A DNA stretch of 64,000 bases from Lactiplantibacillus mudanjiangensis. GTDB taxonomy: Bacteria; Bacillota; Bacilli; Lactobacillales; Lactobacillaceae. The translations under genes were made by a program, and so were the position numbers. How positions within the stretch are numbered: the stretch's first letter is position 1; every line of letters begins with the position of its first letter. Positions 5,039 to 35,346 of this stretch are shown piece after piece. Below the pieces are notes generated by a model. The model did not search any database, was not told where the DNA came from, and was given only the letters and a program-made list of their open reading frames with translations. The stretch covers positions 1 through 64,000 of the forward strand of contig NZ_BJDY01000001.1 of the NCBI RefSeq assembly GCF_005405385.1, given 5' to 3'.

Positions 5039-5164
5039 GTGATAACCTCCAATTAATCCTTAACTAATTATTTACAGACTTAAACATTTCTTCTCGATTT
5101 TGTTAACCGGCTGTAACTGGTCTGCAAAGTTTACGCAACTTAACTTTGTTACGCTATTGATTGG

Positions 5165-5250
5165 AACGAACGAAATATATCAGCACGTATATTCAAGCCA
5201 ATTCGTTTCAGGCCGTTGTCATCCGAACGATGATAACGGCTTTTATTTTA
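5165..5250 (+). ncRNA. Possible small RNA or orphan leader ending in a terminator
   Basis: A 12-bp stem (5212-5223 with 5229-5240) followed by TTTTATTTT is a good intrinsic terminator on the plus strand, and an AACGAA/TTCGTT-type hairpin precedes it. No open frame lies upstream on this strand and the neighbouring gene runs the other way, so the terminator must end a short untranslated transcript starting after about 5050. The promoter was not identified with confidence. Confidence 0.4.
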
Positions 5251-5290
5251 CCGAAAAATACGACAAAACTAAATTAAAATAGAATTAGGG

Positions 5291-5319
5291 TTGACAGTGC
5301 AAAATGAGAATGCTTTAAT
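5291..5319 (+). promoter_or_regulatory. Promoter of the aromatic operon
   Basis: Perfect -35 box TTGACA at 5291-5296, 17-base spacer, and -10 box TTTAAT at 5314-5319. Transcription would start about 20 to 25 bases before the leader peptide ribosome binding site. Confidence 0.8.
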
Positions 5320-5353
5320 ATAAACATCAACTTAACGGAAAGGAAAGATAATT

Positions 5354-5410
5354 ATGACTCAACTACTCACCACCAACGCGTATTATTTTGGCTTTTATTA
5401 CTTTAGGTAG
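5354..5410 (+). CDS. Aromatic leader peptide
   Basis: An 18-residue peptide, MTQLLTTNAYYFGFYYFR, preceded by the ribosome binding site GGAAAGGAAAG. Residues 10-17 contain four Tyr and three Phe around one Gly. It lies between a strong promoter and a terminator that precedes the chorismate/tyrosine genes, which is the classical layout of ribosome-mediated attenuation (as in pheL and trpL of enterobacteria). Shortage of charged tRNA-Phe or tRNA-Tyr would stall the ribosome on the aromatic codons. Confidence 0.85.
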   Translation: MTQLLTTNAYYFGFYYFR

Positions 5411-5425
5411 CGTTCGTATCAGTTT

Positions 5426-5584
5426 CTTAGATGCGGACGGTAAACACGTTCGTGTCTAAGGTGAGCAAAGTCATTTTTGTCTTTGACCAGCTAGACACCA
5501 GAAGTCTAGCTGGGATAAAATCCAATTATTCCATCGTGGTTTTTTAAGCCAGCTAGATTTCTAAATCTAGCTGGCTTTTTTGTT
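5426..5584 (+). promoter_or_regulatory. Attenuator of the aromatic operon
   Basis: Three stems follow the leader peptide. The first (5426-5438 with 5448-5460) is 13 bp including wobbles. The second pairs CCAGCTAGAC (5487-5496) with GTCTAGCTGG (5504-5513). The third (5546-5560 with 5563-5577) is a terminator with a T run. Stems two and three share the sequence CCAGCTAGA/TCTAGCTGG, so either left arm can pair with either right arm; this gives mutually exclusive antiterminator and terminator folds. No T-box motif is present. Confidence 0.82.
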
Positions 5585-5622
5585 TTTCTAATTCGTTTTT
5601 AATCATCTAAGGAGTGACCGCG

Positions 5623-7098
5623 ATGCAACGTCGAACATTATCTTTAAGTTTATACCTCAATTACTTAGTACACGGGATTGGGCTCATTATTTTGACCCAA
5701 AACATGCAAGCCTTAAGCCAACATTGGCAAACGCCAATCGCCACCGTTTCTTACGTGGTTTCTGGGATCGGGGTTGGGCGATTATTAGCCTACTTCTTAT
5801 TCGGAAAATTATCTGATCGTTATGGCCGAAAGTTATTTATCAATCTAGGGATGGTCAGCTACTTGATCTTCTTCATCGGTATGGCGTTTGTGACCAACAT
5901 TCAAGTCGCATACGGGTTAGCCATTTTAGCTGGGATTGCCAATTCAGCTTTAGATTCAGGGACATACACAACGTTTATTGAAATGGGTGGCCGTCAAGGG
6001 TCAGCTAATGTCTTAATCAAAGCGTTCATGTCCGCTGGTGAATTCATCTTGCCATTGTTCATTGCTAGCTTAGAAAGTACCAATCAATGGTACGGCTGGT
6101 CATTCTTACTAGCTGCCGTTATTTTACTCGTTAACTTGGTCTTACTTAATCGGCAAACCTTCCCAGTACGGAATCAAACCGATGCTAGTGATACTGCCCA
6201 AACACAACCATTACCAAAATGGCGGCGGGGTGTTGCCAGCGTGAGCTTAGCCGGTTACGGTTACACGTCAATGGCGGTCATGATCTTGTACACCCAATGG
6301 ATCAGTTTATTTGTCACTAGTGAAATGGGTTACTCACGGGTCTTGGCCCACTTATTGCTATCGCTTTACAGTATCGGGTCCATTACCGGGGTGTTAGTGA
6401 CCTTCTGGTTGCTACATCGCGGCATGGCTGAAGGTAAATTATTAGTCACGATGAATGCTAGTGCGTTAGTGGCGTTACTCGTGGTTTGCTACACCAACTG
6501 GTCATGGCTATCAATTATCGCCTCCTTCATGTTTGGTTTCACCGCTGCTGGTGGGATGATGCAAGTTGGTTTGAACTTATTTATCCGTTTATACCCACGT
6601 GCCAAAGGGACGGTTACTGGCATCTTCTTTACATTTGGCAGTATCGCCGCCTTCACGATTCCAATTGTGACTGGCTGGTTATCCAAACAAAGTATTGGCG
6701 CAGCGATGCGTTTTGATTTGATCATTGGCTTAGCTGGCGTCATTTGTGTGGCAACCGCGGTTTGGGCTTTACGCGCAACTAAAACGCTTGACCACGAACG
6801 CCAACAAATTAACCAGATTGATCAACAAATTATTCACTTACTCAATCAACGTTTTGACACGGTCACCACGATTGGTGAACTCAAACAGGCGGCACAATTA
6901 CCCGTTTTAGATGCGAGTCGCGAAGCTGTTGTCCTAGATCGCGTGGCGCAAAAGAGTCAAGCGGCAGCCCACACACCATATTTACAAGCTATTTACGAAG
7001 CCATTATGGCCAATTCACGAGCTTATCAAACCGCTCGAAAAACGACTGAAACTCAAGTAACGACCACCGCGTCGAAGGAGGAACTATCACATGATTAA
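5623..7098 (+). CDS. MFS transporter fused to AroQ-type chorismate mutase
   Basis: A 491-residue fusion. Residues 1 to about 385 form a 12-helix major facilitator with the loop GKLSDRYGRK between helices 2 and 3. Residues about 391-475 form an AroQ chorismate mutase; comparison with the E. coli P-protein mutase suggests conserved active-site Arg (ERQQI), Arg (NQRF), Lys (GELK), Glu (SREA) and Gln (SRAYQ), so it should convert chorismate to prephenate. The ATG at 5623 follows AAGGAG. First structural gene of the attenuated operon and overlapping aroC by eight bases. The transporter's substrate is unknown; an aromatic acid or amino acid is the natural guess. Confidence 0.88.
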   Translation: MQRRTLSLSLYLNYLVHGIGLIILTQNMQALSQHWQTPIATVSYVVSGIGVGRLLAYFLFGKLSDRYGRKLFINLGMVSYLIFFIGMAFVTNIQVAYGLAILAGIANSALDSGTYTTFIEMGGRQGSANVLIKAFMSAGEFILPLFIASLESTNQWYGWSFLLAAVILLVNLVLLNRQTFPVRNQTDASDTAQTQPLPKWRRGVASVSLAGYGYTSMAVMILYTQWISLFVTSEMGYSRVLAHLLLSLYSIGSITGVLVTFWLLHRGMAEGKLLVTMNASALVALLVVCYTNWSWLSIIASFMFGFTAAGGMMQVGLNLFIRLYPRAKGTVTGIFFTFGSIAAFTIPIVTGWLSKQSIGAAMRFDLIIGLAGVICVATAVWALRATKTLDHERQQINQIDQQIIHLLNQRFDTVTTIGELKQAAQLPVLDASREAVVLDRVAQKSQAAAHTPYLQAIYEAIMANSRAYQTARKTTETQVTTTASKEELSHD

Positions 7099-8263
7099 TT
7101 ACGTCACTGCAGGAGAATCACACGGTCCACAACTTACTGGGATTTTAACTGGAATTCCCGCTGGTTTAACTTTAGATATTGAGGCGATCAACGCTGGTTT
7201 AGCGGCTCGTCAAGGGGGCTTTGGCCGTGGCAATCGCCAACAAATTGAACATGATACGGTGACGGTTACTGGTGGGTTACGACATGGCGTGACACTTGGC
7301 TCACCATTAGCATTAACGATTCAAAATCGCGATCATGCGCATTGGTCAGATATTATGAACCCAACGAGTCCGGCGACCCCAGAAAATACCTTGCGACAAG
7401 TTACCCGCCCACGTCCGGGCCATGCCGATTTAGTCGGTGGGATGAAATACGGTCATCGTGATTTACGAAACGTTTTGGAACGCTCATCGGCCCGTGAAAC
7501 GGCGATGCGCGTGGCGATTGGGCAAGTTTGTAAACAACTCTTAGCGCAACTTGGCATTGAACTCGTGGGTTACGTCCAACAAATCGGGTCAATCACCGCC
7601 GATGCCACAGAAGCGAGTGTTACGGTCGCTGAATTAAACGATGCCATTACGACCAATGATTTACGAATTACCGATCAAACGAAAGTTGATGAGATTCATG
7701 ATCTGATTACCGCCACGAAAAAGGCTGGCGATACGTTGGGCGGCGTGATTCGCGTCGTTGCGACCAACGTGCCAGCGGGATTAGGCAGTTACACCAACTG
7801 GGACACTAAGTTAGACGGGCAATTAGCCGCCGCAGTGATGGGTGTGAATGCGATGAAAGGTGTCGAAATTGGAGATGGCTTTGCCGCTGCCGGGAGTTAT
7901 GGAAGCCAAGTGATGGATGAAATCGATTGGCATGCCGAAGACGGTTGGTCACGATTGACGAATCACCTAGGCGGTTTTGAAGGTGGCATGACTAATGGAA
8001 TGCCAATTATTGTCAAAGCGGCGATGAAGCCGATCCCAACGCTATACAAACCGTTACAAAGTGTTGATATTCAAACGAAAGCGGTCCAAAAAGCCAGTGT
8101 TGAACGATCAGATACCACGGCAATTGTGCCAGCGTCGATTGTCGTTGAAAGTGTGGTCGCCATCGAATTGGCGAAGGCCTTAACGGCAACCTTTGATGGT
8201 AGTAACTTAGCACGTTTGCAAACGACTATCCAAACTTACCGCGACGAATTGCAGGCCTACTAA
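7091..8263 (+). CDS. aroC: Chorismate synthase
   Basis: Chorismate synthase of 390 residues, converting 5-enolpyruvylshikimate-3-phosphate to chorismate with reduced FMN. Signature GESHG at residues 8-12, GRGNRQ, and the RSSARETAMR block are present, and length is normal for the family. AAGGAGG precedes the ATG within the end of the upstream gene, and its stop overlaps the start of the next gene (8263), so translation is probably coupled. Cytosolic. Confidence 0.96.
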   Translation: MINYVTAGESHGPQLTGILTGIPAGLTLDIEAINAGLAARQGGFGRGNRQQIEHDTVTVTGGLRHGVTLGSPLALTIQNRDHAHWSDIMNPTSPATPENTLRQVTRPRPGHADLVGGMKYGHRDLRNVLERSSARETAMRVAIGQVCKQLLAQLGIELVGYVQQIGSITADATEASVTVAELNDAITTNDLRITDQTKVDEIHDLITATKKAGDTLGGVIRVVATNVPAGLGSYTNWDTKLDGQLAAAVMGVNAMKGVEIGDGFAAAGSYGSQVMDEIDWHAEDGWSRLTNHLGGFEGGMTNGMPIIVKAAMKPIPTLYKPLQSVDIQTKAVQKASVERSDTTAIVPASIVVESVVAIELAKALTATFDGSNLARLQTTIQTYRDELQAY

Positions 8264-8811
8264 TGCGGTTGCATACGTTAGGTCCGGCGGTGACCGATAG
8301 TTACGCGGCGGCCCAATATTACAACGAAACTGCCTGTGAGGGCCAAGCTGAAATTATCGGGCATCCGAGTTTTGAAACGATTTTAACGCATTTAACAGCC
8401 TATGCCGGCGATTGGCTCATTATTCCAGCGGCGTTTCAGTCGCCAAGTTTACAAGCCAGTTGGGGTGATATCCATTACGCGTTACTTAGTCAGATGACCT
8501 TGACCACTTGTTTTATGACTGAACTCGATCCATTGGTCGTGGTTGCCCGAACCGATGCTGATAATCGAATCGGGTATACGCACGCCGCGACCGCCCAATT
8601 ATTAAAACGAACGGTGAGCAATGTGGTCGTTCAAACGGCGGCCAGCAAGTTTTTGGCTTATCAACAATATCAAGAAAATCAAGCCGGCTATGTGTTGACG
8701 AATGAAAAAAACGTCACTTTGTCGGCCAACGAAAAAATACTAAAACGGCTCACGCCATCGATGGTGTGGTGCGTTTATCAGATTAAGGATGATGACACAT
8801 GCAAACATTAA
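8263..8811 (+). CDS. Aromatic-operon protein, weakly prephenate dehydratase-like
   Basis: A 182-residue protein with no clear family. Its start (MRLHTLGPAVTDSYAAAQYY) recalls the LGPxGTxSxxAA opening of prephenate dehydratase, LIIPAAFQSPS sits where the conserved VPIENS block would be, and TAASKFLAYQQY recalls the later STAxAA element, but the key catalytic Thr-containing motif of PheA and the ACT domain are not recognisable. It could be a degenerate or repurposed PheA-like periplasmic-binding-fold protein. It overlaps aroC by one base and aroA by 13 bases, so it is made with the pathway enzymes. No standard pheA is present in this operon. Confidence 0.6.
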   Translation: MRLHTLGPAVTDSYAAAQYYNETACEGQAEIIGHPSFETILTHLTAYAGDWLIIPAAFQSPSLQASWGDIHYALLSQMTLTTCFMTELDPLVVVARTDADNRIGYTHAATAQLLKRTVSNVVVQTAASKFLAYQQYQENQAGYVLTNEKNVTLSANEKILKRLTPSMVWCVYQIKDDDTCKH

Positions 8812-10109
8812 CGTCACGCCCCGCCACGGGGTTACAAGGAACATTAACAGTGCCGGGGGATAAAAGTATTTCCCATCGTGGCCTAATGTTAGGGGCAATT
8901 AGTATGGGTCAAACGACCTTAACCAACTTTTTACCAGCTGATGATTGTTTATCGACATTAACGGCGCTGCAACAATTAGGTATCGACATTAATCGCGATG
9001 ACACTACAGTCACGATTCAAGGACGCGGCTTACATGGCTTAACGGCATCGGCTCAACCACTCGATATGGGCAATGCTGGCACCGCGACGCGTTTGATGGC
9101 TGGGTTATTAGCCGGACAAACTTTTGACAGTACGCTAGTTGGCGATGCCTCGCTCAGTCAACGACCGATGGCGCGGGTCCAACAGCCGTTAGCGACAATG
9201 GGGGCGGAGATTGACTTAACCGATGGGCATTTGCCGATGCATATTCATGGGCGATCACTAATGGCGGCCGATCATTACCCGTTACAAGTCGCCAGTGCCC
9301 AAGTCAAAAGTGCCTTAATTTTGGCAGCAATTCAGGCACCAACTGCCAGTACAATTATTGAAAAGTTACCGACCCGCGACCATACAGAACGGCTGTTAAA
9401 CGCGTTTGGTGGCGATGTTCAAACCGCCGCCGATGGTCGAACGATTACGATTCAACCGCAACCTAAGTTGCAAGGACAAGCGGTGACGGTTCCGGGCGAT
9501 ATGTCATCAGCGGCTTTCTTCATGACTGCTGCCAGCATTGTTCCTGGGTCTAACATACGTTTGACCCAAGTTGGGCTTAACCCTACGCGAACTGGGTTAC
9601 TCAATGTTTTACAAAGAATGGGTGGCGATGTGACGGTAACTTCGGCAAAAAGTGTTGGTGAACCACTAGGCACGGTAACTGTAAAAGCCGCATCATTAAA
9701 CCCAATTGATTTAGGGGCCGAAGATATTCCAGCGGTGATTGATGAATTACCATTAGTAGCCTTGTTAGCTGCGACCGCCGATGGGGTGAGCCATATTACA
9801 GGGGCCGAAGAACTACGCTTCAAAGAAACAGATCGGATTGCCACCATCGTGACTGAATTGCAGAAATTAGGTGTGGCTATTACCGAACAACCGGATGGCT
9901 TCACGATTGATGGTCGTGGTGACTGGCAGCTTCAAACGCCAGTCTTTGACAGTCATGGTGATCATCGAATCGGCATGATGATGGCGGTAGCGGCTTTGCG
10001 ATTAACTGAAACCACAACGTTAGCTGATGAAGCTGCGATTAATATTTCTTACCCACGATTCTTTACAGATTTACAACACTTACTACCAACGGAGGTGAGC
10101 AACGCATGA
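8799..10109 (+). CDS. aroA: EPSP synthase (3-phosphoshikimate 1-carboxyvinyltransferase)
   Basis: EPSP synthase of 436 residues, adding enolpyruvate from PEP to shikimate-3-phosphate. Visible landmarks are PGDKSISHR (residues 19-27), MGNAGTATRLMAGLL, the RFKETDRI segment and the C-terminal DSHGDHRIGMM block. Full length. It overlaps both neighbours, the downstream tyrA by four bases (ATGA), which indicates tight translational coupling. Confidence 0.96.
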   Translation: MQTLTSRPATGLQGTLTVPGDKSISHRGLMLGAISMGQTTLTNFLPADDCLSTLTALQQLGIDINRDDTTVTIQGRGLHGLTASAQPLDMGNAGTATRLMAGLLAGQTFDSTLVGDASLSQRPMARVQQPLATMGAEIDLTDGHLPMHIHGRSLMAADHYPLQVASAQVKSALILAAIQAPTASTIIEKLPTRDHTERLLNAFGGDVQTAADGRTITIQPQPKLQGQAVTVPGDMSSAAFFMTAASIVPGSNIRLTQVGLNPTRTGLLNVLQRMGGDVTVTSAKSVGEPLGTVTVKAASLNPIDLGAEDIPAVIDELPLVALLAATADGVSHITGAEELRFKETDRIATIVTELQKLGVAITEQPDGFTIDGRGDWQLQTPVFDSHGDHRIGMMMAVAALRLTETTTLADEAAINISYPRFFTDLQHLLPTEVSNA

Positions 10110-11203
10110 CACAAGTCTTAATCAAAGGGTTCGGCTTAATTGGGAGTTCGCTCGCGTTAGCCATTCGCCAAGCACATCCAGATGTGACAATTGTTGGTCA
10201 AGACGTGCAATCAGCCAGTTTAACTTATGCGTTAGATCACCAGCTAATTGATGCAACGGCGACAGAATTAACGACGGCCGCCCCACAAGCGGATGTGATT
10301 ATTTTAGCGGGGCCCGTCAGTGTGATTTGTGACGACTTAGCGATCTTAGCCACGTTGCCATTAAAACCACAAGTACTCATTACCGATGTTGGGAGTACCA
10401 AGCAAACGGTCTTAAAAGCAGCCCGACCGTTGCAACAACGAGGATTTACGTTTGTCGGTGGTCATCCGATGGCCGGCTCACACAAAGCTGGTGTTCAAGC
10501 GGGGCGGGCGGATTTGTTTGAAAATGCCTACTATTTCTTAGTTCCCGGTTTAGCGCCGCAAAGTGCCTTGGATAACTTACAGACCTTATTACAAGCTACT
10601 CATGTTAAATGGTTAACGGTTACGCCCAAGCAACATGATCGCTTAGTGGCGCAACTGAGTCATTTACCACACATTGTGGCTGCCGCGTTAGTGAATCAAA
10701 CCCAAGCGGCCTTGGCAGATTCACCATTGGGCCTACGGTTAGCAGCGGGTGGGTTTAAAAGCATTACCCGAATTGCCTCAGCTGATCCCACCATGTGGAC
10801 CGCCATTTTACAAAACAATGCCGATTTGATTATCCAACAGTTGCAGGCTTATCAAGCTGAATTGGCTGAGATTCAAACGGCGATTGCCGCTCAAGATACG
10901 GCGCAATTAACGCAATTCTTTGCGGCTGCGAAAACGACTCGGGATCATTTGGGACCTGAACATCTCGGCAGTTTACCGAACTTTTACGATTTATTCTTAA
11001 ACATTCCTGATCAAGTCGGGGCACTCGCCGATGTGACGCAACGGTTAGCGGCGGCTGAGTTGAGTTTAGTGAATATTCATATTTTAGAAATTCGCGAAGA
11101 AGTCGATGGCGTCTTACAAGTGACGTTTGGTGATGCCGCTACTCGCGATCAAGCCGCAACGTTATTACAAGCAGCGGACTACCAAATTGTTAGGAGAGAT
11201 TAG
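10106..11203 (+). CDS. tyrA: Prephenate dehydrogenase with ACT domain
   Basis: A 365-residue TyrA that oxidatively decarboxylates prephenate to 4-hydroxyphenylpyruvate with NAD. Nucleotide-binding GFGLIG lies at residues 8-13, the DVGSTK and GGHPMAGSH catalytic segments follow (with the expected His), and residues about 295-360 form a C-terminal ACT domain (IPDQVGALADVTQRLA), which in such enzymes binds tyrosine for feedback inhibition. Chorismate mutase activity is supplied by the fused transporter gene at the start of the operon rather than by this protein. Confidence 0.93.
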   Translation: MTQVLIKGFGLIGSSLALAIRQAHPDVTIVGQDVQSASLTYALDHQLIDATATELTTAAPQADVIILAGPVSVICDDLAILATLPLKPQVLITDVGSTKQTVLKAARPLQQRGFTFVGGHPMAGSHKAGVQAGRADLFENAYYFLVPGLAPQSALDNLQTLLQATHVKWLTVTPKQHDRLVAQLSHLPHIVAAALVNQTQAALADSPLGLRLAAGGFKSITRIASADPTMWTAILQNNADLIIQQLQAYQAELAEIQTAIAAQDTAQLTQFFAAAKTTRDHLGPEHLGSLPNFYDLFLNIPDQVGALADVTQRLAAAELSLVNIHILEIREEVDGVLQVTFGDAATRDQAATLLQAADYQIVRRD

Positions 11204-11204
11204 G

Positions 11205-11729
11205 ATGCAAGCAATTTTAATTGGATTCATGGGCAGTGGTAAAACGACGGTCGGCCAACTCTTGGCAGCACAAACTGGGACGGAACATGCGGACTTAGAT
11301 GATTTGATTGTGAGCAGTGCCGGTCAGGCGATTACGACCATTTTTGCGGAAAAAGGGGAAGGTTACTTCCGGCAATTGGAACAACAGACGTTAAGAGCGG
11401 CTTTGCAACAACCCGGTATTTTATCCACGGGTGGCGGTACGCCGACAATCGCGGCCAATGCGGCGATTTTAACAGCGAGTGCGGTGCCGGTGATTTTATT
11501 AGACGCCAGTGATGAGACGACGCTGCAACGAGTGATGGGCGATGCGAGTCGGCCATTAGTCAATGATTTGGATACGGATGCGTTGTTATCCTTAAAACAT
11601 CGCCGGGCACCGTTATACGAAGCGACGGCTGATTTAGTGATTTCAACAGACACGTTGACGCCACAACAAATTGTCACGACGATTCAAGACTGGTTAGCGA
11701 AGCCCGCACAACAAGTGGCACAAGCTTAG
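11205..11729 (+). CDS. aroK: Shikimate kinase
   Basis: A 174-residue shikimate kinase. Walker A GSGKTT (residues 10-15), the shikimate-binding Asp in HADLDDLI, and GGGTP near residue 78 are present; the lid Arg lies in MGDASRPL. The ATG at 11205 is chosen because AGGAGAG lies just upstream, spanning the tyrA stop; an upstream in-frame ATG lies deep inside tyrA. Last gene of the operon, followed by a strong terminator. Confidence 0.94.
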   Translation: MQAILIGFMGSGKTTVGQLLAAQTGTEHADLDDLIVSSAGQAITTIFAEKGEGYFRQLEQQTLRAALQQPGILSTGGGTPTIAANAAILTASAVPVILLDASDETTLQRVMGDASRPLVNDLDTDALLSLKHRRAPLYEATADLVISTDTLTPQQIVTTIQDWLAKPAQQVAQA

Positions 11730-32353: not shown

Positions 32354-32490
32354 CGCCTCTCCTCCGTTCAAATTAATCTCCGACTATTATAGCATTCAAT
32401 GATTTTGGCGGGCAAATAATCGCAAAGAATCCCGAGCAATGCTTGAATAATCCGGTGGGGTTTGCTACCATGATAACTAATAACTTTGCG

Positions 32491-32721
32491 ACTCTGACAA
32501 GGACTAGTAGTCGGCGATGATTTTCAGAAACCCCGTGGTTGTTGCAAACGGGGATTCATGGCCAACGAACTCACCTTCGAGTCTTCCGGCTGAAACAAGT
32601 AGGTTCGGACGTGGTTTCGCGTTAAGATTCCCAAGAAGCCACGATTATCGTGGAATCATAGGTGGTACCGCGGAACCTCGTTTCGTCCTATAAGCGCTTT
32701 TTGCTTATAGGCGTTTTTTTG
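32491..32721 (+). promoter_or_regulatory. T-box leader of leuS
   Basis: The T-box sequence AGGTGGTACCGCG begins at 32660 and is followed by a terminator (CCTATAAGC/GCTTATAGG and a T run, 32687-32720). Stem I begins near 32491 and the specifier loop appears in GAACTCACCTTC, with CTC as the probable leucine codon. Uncharged tRNA-Leu would stabilise the antiterminator and switch leuS on. Confidence 0.9.
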
Positions 32722-32922: not shown

Positions 32923-35346
32923 ATGGCATACAACCATCACGTCATTGAACATAAATGGCAGCATTACTGGAAGGTCAATAAGACTTTCAAAACATTAGAC
33001 GGCACCGATAAGCCTAAATATTACGCATTGGACATGTTCCCTTATCCATCTGGTCAAGGGTTACACGTTGGGCATCCTGAAGGGTACACTGCGACAGATA
33101 TCATGTCTCGTTTGAAACGGATGCAAGGTTACAATGTATTACATCCAATGGGGTGGGATGCGTTTGGCCTTCCCGCTGAACAATATGCGTTAAAGACCGG
33201 GCATAACCCCAAAGACTTTACCGCTAAAAATATTAAAAACTTTAAACGCCAAATTCGCTCACTTGGGTTCTCATATGACTGGGATCGCGAAGTTAACACC
33301 ACTGATCCTAGCTTCTACAAGTGGACCCAATGGATTTTTGAGCAATTATACAAAAAAGGATTAGCTTACGAATCTGAAACGTTGGTTAACTGGGCCCCTG
33401 ATATGATGGGTGGGACCGTGGTTTCTAACGAAGAAGTGATTGACGGTAAGACTGAACGAGGCGGCTTCCCAGTTTATCGAGTGCCAATGAAACAATGGAG
33501 CTTGAAGATTACGGCGTATGCTGATCGTTTGATCGATGACTTAGATGACATCGACTGGCCTGAAAGCATTAAAGAACAACAACGTAACTGGATCGGTCGG
33601 TCAATCGGGGCAGCTATTCGCTTTAAGGTTGCCGGTGCTGAAGATCATCAAATCGAAGTCTTCTCAACGCGTCCAGATACGTTGTTTGGGGCTAGCTACT
33701 TAGTGTTGGCACCTGAACATGACTTAGTTGAAAAATTAACCACACCAGAACAAGCTGAAGTGGTTAAGGCTTATAAAGAAAAGATTTCAACCAAGTCTGA
33801 CTTGGAACGGACTGATTTGAATAAAGACAAGACTGGGGTCTTCACTGGGAGTTACGTCATTAACCCCGTTAATGGTGAAAAACTACCAATCTGGATTGCC
33901 GATTACGTTTTAGCTTCTTATGGGACTGGGGCCGTAATGGGTGTGCCTGCTCATGATGGTCGGGACTTTGAATTTGCCCACAAGTTTGATTTGCCAATCA
34001 AACCAGTAATTGCTGGTGACAACGATTATGACAAGCAAGTCTACACCGAAGATGGCGAACATATTAACTCTGGTTTCTTGGATGGCATGGCAACTAAACC
34101 GGCTGTTGACAAGATGGTTGACTGGTTAGTTGAACATGGTGCTGGTGAAAAGAAGGTTAACTACCGTTTACGGGACTGGATCTTCTCACGTCAACGTTAT
34201 TGGGGTGAACCTATTCCCGTTATTCATTGGGAAGATGGCGAAACCACATTAGTGCCTGAAGACGAATTACCATTGCGTTTACCAGCGACTAAGAACTTGG
34301 AACCATCCGGGACTGGTGAAAGCCCATTAGCCAATATTGACGATTGGGTCAATGTGGTTGATGAAAACGGTCGTAAAGGGAAACGTGAAACCAACACGAT
34401 GCCACAATGGGCTGGGAGTTCATGGTACTTCTTACGTTACGTTGATCCTCGCAACAGTGAAGCTTTAGCCGACTACAAGAAGTTGAAGTATTGGTCACCA
34501 GTTGACTTATACGTCGGTGGGGCGGAACATGCCGTCTTACATTTACTTTATGCCCGTTTCTGGCACAAGTTCTTGTATGACTTAGGCGTTGTACCTAATA
34601 AGGAACCTTTCCAGAAGTTAGTTAACCAAGGGATGATCTTGGGTGACAACCACGAAAAGATGTCGAAATCACGTGGGAATGTGGTTAACCCCGATGACAT
34701 CGTGGACCAATATGGTGCCGATACGTTACGGCTCTATGAAATGTTCATGGGACCATTGGAAGCGTCAATTCCTTGGAGTACCGAAGGCTTGCATGGTGCT
34801 AACAAGTGGATCGAACGGGTTTGGCGTTTAATCATTGACGAAAATAACCACGTTCGTGATCGCGTCACAACTTTCAATGATGGTAAGTTGGACAAGATCT
34901 ACAACGAAACGGTTAAAAAAGTCACCGAAGACTACGAAGCGATGCGCTTTAATATTGCCATCTCTCAAATGATGGTCTTCGTGAACGAAGCTTACAAGGT
35001 AGATGACTTACCAGTTGTTTATATTGAAGGCTTAGTGAAATTATTAGCCCCAATCACGCCACATTTATCTGAAGAATTATGGTCATTATTAGGCCATGAA
35101 CACACGATTTCTTACGCAAGTTTCCCAACTTATGATGAAAGTAAGTTAGTGGAAGATACCGTTCAAATCGTGCTTCAAGTTAACGGTAAAGTCCGCTCAC
35201 ATGCGGAAGTTGCGGTTGATATGGGTAAAGAAGACTTAGAAAAATTAGCCTTAGCTGATGAAAAGGTCCAAGAATTTATCGAAGGCAAGACGGTCCGTAA
35301 AGTGATCGCCTTACCTGGTAAATTGGTCAATATCGTCGCTAACTAA
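32923..35346 (+). CDS. leuS: Leucyl-tRNA synthetase
   Basis: A full-length 807-residue class I synthetase that charges tRNA-Leu. The HIGH-type motif is HVGH at residues 48-51, the KMSKS motif lies near residue 580, and the CP1 editing domain is recognisable from [26 protein letters not shown] precedes the ATG. Controlled by the T-box upstream. Confidence 0.97.

Follow-up and report, generated by a model that had tools for sequence, protein, structure and literature searches.

A probable ribosome-mediated attenuator with a tyrosine/phenylalanine leader peptide in front of aromatic amino acid genes of Lactobacillales

Firmicutes are thought to monitor amino acids mainly via T-boxes. In Escherichia coli and Salmonella, the his and phe leaders combine a peptide rich in regulatory codons with successive arms that pair alternately and a terminator in last position; the his leader has six arms. 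The DNA analyzed here, a stretch of 64,000 nucleotides from Lactiplantibacillus mudanjiangensis (the window), raises the question how an operon for aromatic amino acid synthesis is controlled in a member of the Lactobacillales. A first-pass annotation had proposed an attenuator with alternative pairing in front of this operon. Our analysis argues strongly for this type of control: the element is very probably a ribosome-mediated transcription attenuator, in which charged tRNA-Tyr and tRNA-Phe would be sensed via the leader peptide MTQLLTTNAYYFGFYYFR.

The leader region and the operon behind it

The control region and the genes that follow it were assigned as listed here.

5291 to 5319, + strand: promoter, read from the sequence (TTGACA 5291-5296, 17-nt spacer, TTTAAT 5314-5319)
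5337 to 5343, + strand: leader ribosome site GGAAAGG, 10 nt ahead of the ATG at 5354
5354 to 5410, + strand: leader ORF MTQLLTTNAYYFGFYYFR, stop codon TAG 5408-5410 (from the sequence, a chance count and conservation in relatives)
5623 to 7098, + strand: first gene, MFS transporter fused to a type II chorismate mutase (Pfam MFS_1 and CM_2)
7091 to 8263, + strand: aroC, chorismate synthase (Pfam)
8263 to 8811, + strand: 182-aa protein without a Pfam match; prephenate dehydratases rank first for the predicted fold, with low TM-scores
8799 to 10109, + strand: aroA, EPSP synthase (Pfam)
10106 to 11203, + strand: tyrA, prephenate dehydrogenase (Pfam)
11205 to 11729, + strand: aroK, shikimate kinase (Pfam; start picked by us)

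The promoter claimed by the first-pass annotation is confirmed at these positions, and a by-eye comparison of upstream regions revealed a similar layout in many relatives. A consensus promoter scan that demands an A at the second position of the -10 box did not list it. The ribosome site and the aromatic peptide are likewise present, and the latter is beyond chance. Seven aromatic residues, a mixture of Tyr and Phe, fall within eight codons of the leader ORF. Among the 730 ATG ORFs of 10-45 aa in the window this value is reached once, by the leader ORF itself, and the runner-up has five. In 50 first-order Markov copies of the window, seven aromatic residues were reached by one of 53,071 ORFs and six by 20. 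The leader ORF with its ribosome site is conserved in relatives and constitutes a putative translatable short ORF between promoter and first gene. Its cluster of Tyr/Phe codons would fit the end product of an operon that contains tyrA, aroC, aroA, aroK and a chorismate mutase.

To describe this operon as leading from chorismate to tyrosine is too narrow, because aroA and aroK belong to it as well. Among named sequences, the first gene is matched best by one from L. daowaiensis (86%), and the fusion of MFS transporter and chorismate mutase is kept across several genera. The 182-aa protein has neither a Pfam nor a useful NCBIfam match. Its AlphaFold model (mean pLDDT 92) has 3mwb as top match (E 3e-9), TM-scores range from 0.33 to 0.48, and other periplasmic-binding-type folds follow after the prephenate dehydratases. 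With its 182 aa the protein has no ACT domain and might therefore perhaps be a feedback-free PheA; homologues were found by tblastn in 21 of 26 loci searched.

Two further observations concern the surroundings of the promoter. Part of its spacer, AAAATGAGAATG (5300-5312), appears by eye to be conserved in many relatives from Lactiplantibacillus and Levilactobacillus and is possibly a regulator site or an extended promoter element. Ahead of the promoter, a terminator-like hairpin lies at 5210-5242 on the + strand, with no + strand gene of at least 80 aa directly before it. Near relatives seem, by eye, to have conserved this hairpin through compensatory changes, and it may be the end of an unannotated short RNA within 5040-5242.

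Alternative pairings behind the leader ORF and their covariation

The stretch 5320-5600 folds far more stably than its own shuffles (z -8.6, 0/200). Three stems had been described, two of them with identical arms and the last a terminator, and these stems are real: the first joins 5426-5439 to 5447-5460, the second CCAGCTAGA (5487-5495) to TCTAGCTGG (5505-5513), and the third repeats the same arms, CCAGCTAGA at 5549-5557 and TCTAGCTGG at 5566-5574, followed by T6. A terminator scan called this last stem at 5546-5577. The description had overlooked arm A (5411-5420) and a pairing of the Tyr/Phe codons with 5467-5472. Together, the arms are as follows.

5341 to 5359, + strand (approximate limits): arm S, leader ribosome site and start codon, complementary to K
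5390 to 5395, + strand: arm P (GGCTTT, codons Gly13-Phe14), inside the aromatic codon block, partner Q
5411 to 5420, + strand: arm A, immediately 3' of the stop codon, partner B
5426 to 5439, + strand: arm B, partner A or C
5447 to 5460, + strand: arm C, partner B or, with 5452-5458, D
5467 to 5472, + strand: arm Q (AAAGTC), behind C, partner P
5470 to 5486, + strand (approximate limits): arm K, linker between Q and D, complementary to S
5487 to 5498, + strand: arm D, partner C (5492-5498) or E (5487-5496)
5504 to 5513, + strand: arm E, partner D or F
5549 to 5560, + strand: arm F, partner E (antiterminator) or G (terminator)
5563 to 5581, + strand: arm G (5563-5574) and T-run (5576-5581), intrinsic terminator with F

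Each of the seven arms A to G can pair with the preceding or the next arm, and neighboring helices are mutually exclusive. In one state, A:B, C:D and E:F leave G unpaired; in the other, B:C and D:E go along with the terminator F:G. Arm A lies directly behind the stop codon, and hence the first stem belongs to the relay. A further pairing suggested by the single-sequence fold, CTCACC (5366-5371) with GGTGAG (5460-5465), is by eye kept at most in the nearest species and was dropped.

From this arrangement we propose the following mechanism. A ribosome waiting on the Tyr/Phe codons would cover P, so that P:Q could not form, and would leave A free. A:B, C:D and E:F would then form, G would be without a partner and the polymerase would enter the aro operon. 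A ribosome at the stop codon would cover A, giving B:C, D:E and the terminator F:G. With no ribosome on the leader, P:Q, in Lactiplantibacillus together with S:K, would lock B:C and thereby bring about termination.

Conservation of these pairings was analyzed in two alignments. Relatives were sought with the fusion gene, except for a Nicoliella plasmid locus that was found by DNA similarity. From the loci L001-L058 we used 42, which gave 32 distinct upstream regions and 30 sequences in the first alignment (A1). The other loci were L001 and L002 from the own genome, the transporter paralogues L020-L032, which match only in the MFS part, and L057, which matches only in the mutase domain. A1 omits L040, a duplicate from the same species as L007, and L053 with its degenerate peptide and arms; for L008 and L054 the ends were placed manually. 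The alignment covers Lactiplantibacillus, Levilactobacillus, Liquorilactobacillus, Bombilactobacillus, Ligilactobacillus, Sporolactobacillus and the one Nicoliella plasmid. The second alignment (A3) consists of 43 distant leaders out of 62 listed loci; nine loci were excluded beforehand (near duplicates, and L181, which has no leader), one because no terminator was found, and nine as near duplicates or cut short.

In A1 the peptide ends in Y-Y-[YF]-G-F-x-Y-F-R, with some departures. At the DNA level its Gly codon is almost always GGC (26 of 29 counted leaders), which is a pointer to RNA pairing. The terminator state including P:Q has 94.4% of its cells paired and two-sided changes in 23 of 41 pairs (shuffled mean 7.8; 0/500). 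For the antiterminator state, 94.3% of the cells are paired and 9 of 26 pairs show two-sided change (shuffled 5.3; 5/500), while cells with two-sided change number 20 against 7.8 in shuffles (0/500). Sliding the partners by one to three columns lowers the paired cells from 94% to 22-43%. The distant set behaves in the same way: the terminator state is paired in 95.9% of cells with two-sided change in 15 of 31 pairs, the antiterminator state in 94.1% with 10 of 22 pairs (0/500 shuffles each), where D:E and E:F were counted by their gap-free cores only (5 and 4 pairs).

As a second measure, duplexes of arms from one species were compared with duplexes of arms swapped between species (2000 permutations). 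Such permutations keep the relatedness of species in, and unpredicted pairs from the same sequences served as control. In both sets the own-species duplex is better for P:Q, A:B, B:C, C:D, D:E, E:F and F:G, with 0-1/2000 permutations in A1 and 0-32/2000 in A3, the weakest being C:D in A3 (32; 0.25 kcal/mol). Twelve of 13 other arm combinations had no own-species advantage in both sets. The exception was D:G (2 and 1/2000), a signal that arises because D:E, E:F and F:G hold; next came P:B (55/2000) and E:G (112/2000), in A1 only. Individual leaders illustrate the compensation in P:Q: GGC has become GAC (Asp) with partner GTC in L056 and CGC (Arg) with partner GCG in L051, and in L157 TTT has become TAC with a partner changed to match. 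Within Lactiplantibacillus and Levilactobacillus, S:K also has an own-species advantage (-13.62 versus -10.87 kcal/mol swapped; 0/5000 permutations), measured in 18 of the 20 leaders of these genera in A1 after omission of two near duplicates; in A3 it has none (1055/2000).

The alignment of related lactobacilli that the first-pass annotation had suggested as a check thus yields conserved aromatic codons and covarying arms. The aromatic peptide and both pairings are conserved with compensatory changes, as expected for an attenuator with alternative pairing, and in A1 and A3 alike the covariation points to a terminator and an antiterminator that would be mutually exclusive. The omitted locus L053 (2785-2963), from Liquorilactobacillus cacaonum, carries its degenerate peptide and arms before a first gene that matches in part, and is possibly a natural loss of the element.

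Folding response to the position of the ribosome

We modeled a transcript that ends at F, folded only the RNA ahead of the ribosome and placed the 3' edge of the ribosome at +12. For the window, the probability of the antiterminator, P(E:F), is 0.07 with the A-site at codon -12, 0.85 at -10, 0.93-0.95 at -9 to -4 and 0.72 at -3; it is 0.07 at -2 and 0.09 at the stop codon. The aromatic codons of this leader occupy -9 to -7 and -5 to -2 before the stop. Moving the ribosome edge by 3 shifts the open stretch by one codon. The mean over A1 is 0.44 at its peak, 0.17 at the stop and 0.06 without ribosome, with 15, 5 and 1 of 30 sequences at P(E:F) of at least 0.5. The corresponding A3 means are 0.48, 0.18 and 0.11 (23, 8 and 3 of 43 sequences), and the open stretch of A3 starts about two codons later than that of A1, like its aromatic block (-7 versus -9). 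In the Enterococcus type (L060), P(E:F) was 0.05 or less at all positions under these settings.

The response depends on what the upstream RNA is allowed to do. When it was free to pair across the ribosome, the switch was gone in A1 (mean 0.06-0.08 at every position); the window gave 0.04 at -12 and 0 elsewhere. In A3 it was weakened (peak 0.28, stop 0.16, no ribosome 0.10). Nor did a switch appear in A1 when equilibrium folding was run with the footprint masked and the upstream RNA left free. With 20 nt of upstream RNA allowed, the values for stalled ribosome, stop and no ribosome were 0.33, 0.12 and 0.13 in A1 and 0.44, 0.09 and 0.06 in A3. On this modeling, the antiterminated state must be kinetic, or depend on something that occupies the leader ribosome site. 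Masking Q in the absence of a ribosome did not free E:F (A1 0.05, A3 0.07), and P:Q is therefore not the sole lock in the equilibrium model; the role that we assign to P:Q without a ribosome is proposed because of its covariation.

In Lactiplantibacillus and Levilactobacillus the loss of the switch is in part due to S:K. With upstream RNA free, a lone stalled ribosome and S unmasked, P(E:F) of the window is 0. Masking S brings it to 0.71-0.85 at -10 to -8 and 0.55 at -7, to about 0.2 at -6 and -5, and to 0 from -4 on; the A1 peak mean then is 0.35 (12/29). Since S:K covaries within this clade and an S mask restores E:F in the static model, one may ask whether two ribosomes are involved here. 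S:K crosses C:D and would force termination unless a second, initiating, queued ribosome holds S. Readthrough would then need a Tyr/Phe stall and ongoing leader initiation, amounting to an AND gate, and the later aromatic codons would not be counted, as the S-masked values fall to 0 from -4. We regard such a gate as rather unlikely.

An improbable explanation is that the nascent peptide itself acts as sensor, with TnaC as a precedent. With free Phe/Tyr in abundance, the end ..GF-x-YFR-stop would arrest the ribosome on the stop codon, A would be covered and transcription would terminate, and charged tRNA would be irrelevant. The conserved peptide end speaks for this, and Arg occupies the final sense codon of 25 among the 29 A1 leaders counted (AGG 24, AGA 1) and of all 37 counted A3 leaders (AGA). 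However, the conserved Gly codon is part of P:Q and co-varies with its partner at the cost of the residue, as in L056 and L051. Furthermore, four of these 29 A1 leaders have Lys, Ser or Gly where the others have Arg, L048 has Ile there, and the distant leaders L089, L169, L170 and L174-L177 extend three codons further. Finally, the aromatic block coincides with the stretch of ribosome positions that allow antitermination, as sensing of charged tRNA requires. Attenuation by ribosomes that wait for charged tRNA-Tyr or tRNA-Phe would account for this coincidence.

Distribution, target genes and related elements

The window is matched over its full length by Rfam family RF02863 (sRNA_2410) at a lax threshold, with 23.9 bits and hence below the gathering cut-off of 61; a search of the own genome gave no match at E 0.001. 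The RF02863 model starts with ..TTAGCTACTTTAGATAG, whose in-frame translation finishes with Ser-Tyr-Phe-Arg-stop. At E up to 0.001 the family matches 130 of 246 Lactobacillales genomes (41 of 64 genera, 60 genomes over the cut-off) and none of 14 control genomes. All of the 30 best-scoring loci contain a leader ORF, mostly ending ..YFSYFR at the expected place, and lie before aroE (11) or a substrate-binding protein (19). The arms and their relation to the leader ORF are the same as in the window. We infer common descent of the window element and the RF02863 set, and conclude from these comparisons that RF02863 probably represents the 3' part of a leader-peptide attenuator. Of 250 genomes from the class, 22 have matches at E up to 0.0001, and five of these lie outside the order Lactobacillales. 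The three of these loci that were read, all from one genus, have a leader ending FYFSYF ahead of a gene that by eye resembles DAHP synthase.

A covariance model of our own (R1), built from 23 of the 30 A1 rows and including the last nine leader codons, matches 143 of 301 Lactobacillaceae genomes at E up to 0.001 (25 of 40 genera). A second match in the own genome (L196, E 0.99) has no leader by eye and was taken as chance. We chose 66 further loci by hand for diversity, 34 from R1 and 32 from RF02863 matches. An aromatic leader ORF is at the expected place in 64 of them and absent from L144 and L181; since R1 spans the last nine codons, only the ORF start is independent evidence in its 34 loci.

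First genes behind the element were grouped in 96 loci by clustering the largest ORF. They encode an ABC substrate-binding protein in 49 loci, aroE in 20, an MFS transporter (with chorismate mutase) in 14, aroC in 4, and PheA-like and DAHP-synthase-like proteins in 2 each. Single cases are aroA, a pheA-like gene (L163), an APC permease, another binding protein (L177) and an unrelated-looking transporter (L144). Pfam backs the substrate-binding and aroE groups on three N-terminal pieces, one of them under the cut-off, and the remaining names were given by eye. The NCBIfam TrpX model matches two of the binding proteins below its cut-off, and PDB relatives of one binding protein are 6hni, 3lft and 3lkv. 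It appears that, throughout Lactobacillales, retuned forms of the same element would control aro operons headed by aroE, further aromatic genes and ABC transporters of the TrpX-like type.

We counted F/Y/W in the best 9-residue block of leaders from A1, A3 or the fetched set only. Leaders before binding proteins of Lactobacillaceae gave 42/7/0 (n=10; eight Phe-only, one Tyr-only), other binding-protein leaders 92/72/0 (n=33), aroE-led leaders 35/51/0 (n=17), MFS-led leaders together with the set of the window 88/164/7 (n=43) and the remaining leaders 27/28/2 (n=11). In these counts the leader composition goes with the target gene, and the mixture of Phe and Tyr codons pointed out in the first-pass annotation is conserved before aro operons. 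Before PheA-like first genes, the L132 leader has Phe only, and in that of L152 the last eight codons include four for Phe, with a single Tyr upstream of them. None of the 43 counted leaders before TrpX-like transporters has a Trp codon in the aromatic block. This absence and the Phe-only composition of eight of the ten Lactobacillaceae leaders suggest that the "tryptophan" TrpX-like binding proteins behind the element should serve Phe/Tyr.

Two loci stand out individually. L184 and L185 are transporter genes of one genome that differ by one residue in the first 40, and their leaders end in YYFSYFR and YYSYYR; the specificity of the leader may here diverge faster than the gene. In Nicoliella spurrieriana, an attenuated aro operon with aroE-aroD first adjoins trp genes on a 344-kb plasmid (L058, 6001-12261), and neither annotation nor tblastn gave a PheA-like gene in this operon.

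These data also bear on the view, reflected in the name that Rfam and Sinel et al. use for the Enterococcus relative, that the element is a small RNA acting in trans, with the terminator as merely its end. According to the accessible part of that report, sRNA_2410 was found by RNA-seq as a 195-nt RNA and confirmed in Northern blots as two transcripts (Sinel et al., 2017; PMC5593968), and the strings "leader" and "attenuat" are absent from its text. Expression as an RNA favors the small RNA, but 94 of 96 loci have an aromatic leader ORF whose end lies where expected, the first gene downstream is almost always related to aromatic amino acids, and the pairings are mutually exclusive, as an attenuator needs. 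We therefore give this explanation very little weight, noting that a terminated leader can also appear as a small RNA, perhaps with a second role in trans.

The least credible alternative, which we hardly entertain, is a T-box or a leader that binds tRNA or protein in some other way. In its favor, Firmicutes usually have T-boxes at genes of this type, and a Trp T-box is present at S. suis trpX, though none is predicted at the S. pyogenes homologue (PMC9382623, in excerpt). Against it, RF00230 gave no match in 5200-5700 with E values of up to 5 allowed, but does detect a T-box elsewhere in the window, at 32485-32693. This one is ordinary and precedes a gene whose product reads as leucyl-tRNA synthetase (32923-35346). 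Enterobacterial amino acid leader families of Rfam also had no match in 5200-5700 at E up to 5, and low-scoring matches to other families (mir-8536, Teg23 and others) were put down to perfect hairpins.

The element shares a codon-rich leader peptide, alternate arms and a terminal hairpin terminator with the his and phe leaders of E. coli and Salmonella. It differs from them in having seven arms plus P:Q and two amino acids in one peptide; moreover, it is the codon-block stem, not the first hairpin, that would force termination here when no ribosome is present. RF02863 of Enterococcus faecium resembles it in arm order, in a leader ORF that mostly ends YFSYFR over the 5' end and in target class, but is catalogued as a small RNA, and the window scores under its cut-off. 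That amino acid genes of Firmicutes usually use T-boxes or TRAP, as the first-pass annotation had put it, holds in that T-boxes are usual; leader-peptide precedents do exist in the sources available in excerpt, namely Listeria rli60 and Bacillus hisS/his. In the sections available of PMC5864092, rli60 (ilv-leu) is a ribosome-mediated attenuator in a Firmicute, for which small RNA or cis element was at first open and which was tested by mutation; compared by description, it has four segments and branched-chain codons, unlike the window element. His leader peptides in bacilli (PMC2965389) and his attenuators in other Firmicutes (PMC9413887) are described in partial texts, and PMC11472039, as excerpted, is unrelated to the element. 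The excerpt of PMC8632094 describes uORFC-13-1 at Acholeplasma aroF, likewise a short ORF with a Phe codon before a terminator upstream of an aromatic gene; by description it differs in comprising 24 sequences from one genus and environmental DNA.

An automated screen from 2005 listed database-predicted attenuators before tyrA operons of L. plantarum, E. faecalis and S. pneumoniae (PMC1173090, partial text), and these very likely correspond to the window element. Its Table 7 places an attenuator before ORF>aroG>ORF>aroF>tyrA>aroE of L. plantarum, which would be the operon of the window if aroG, aroF and aroE mean chorismate synthase, EPSP synthase and shikimate kinase, as we read them; the word "leader" is absent from the text as available. 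Among the matches listed by a full-text search, judged by titles and abstract openings, there was no report of a Phe/Tyr leader peptide in Lactobacillales. As far as this search shows, the leader peptide, the relay, the spread and the re-reading of RF02863 are new. The mechanism is of a known kind; the seven-arm relay with its codon-block stem, the two-amino-acid peptide and the wide spread set the element apart.

Amino acid monitoring in Firmicutes is commonly equated with T-boxes, and here an attenuator that would be read by the ribosome stands in front of genes for both synthesis and uptake. About half of the sampled genomes carry profile matches (130/246 and 143/301), most of them not read individually. 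A catalogued "small RNA", RF02863, would thereby become a leader with a checkable function.
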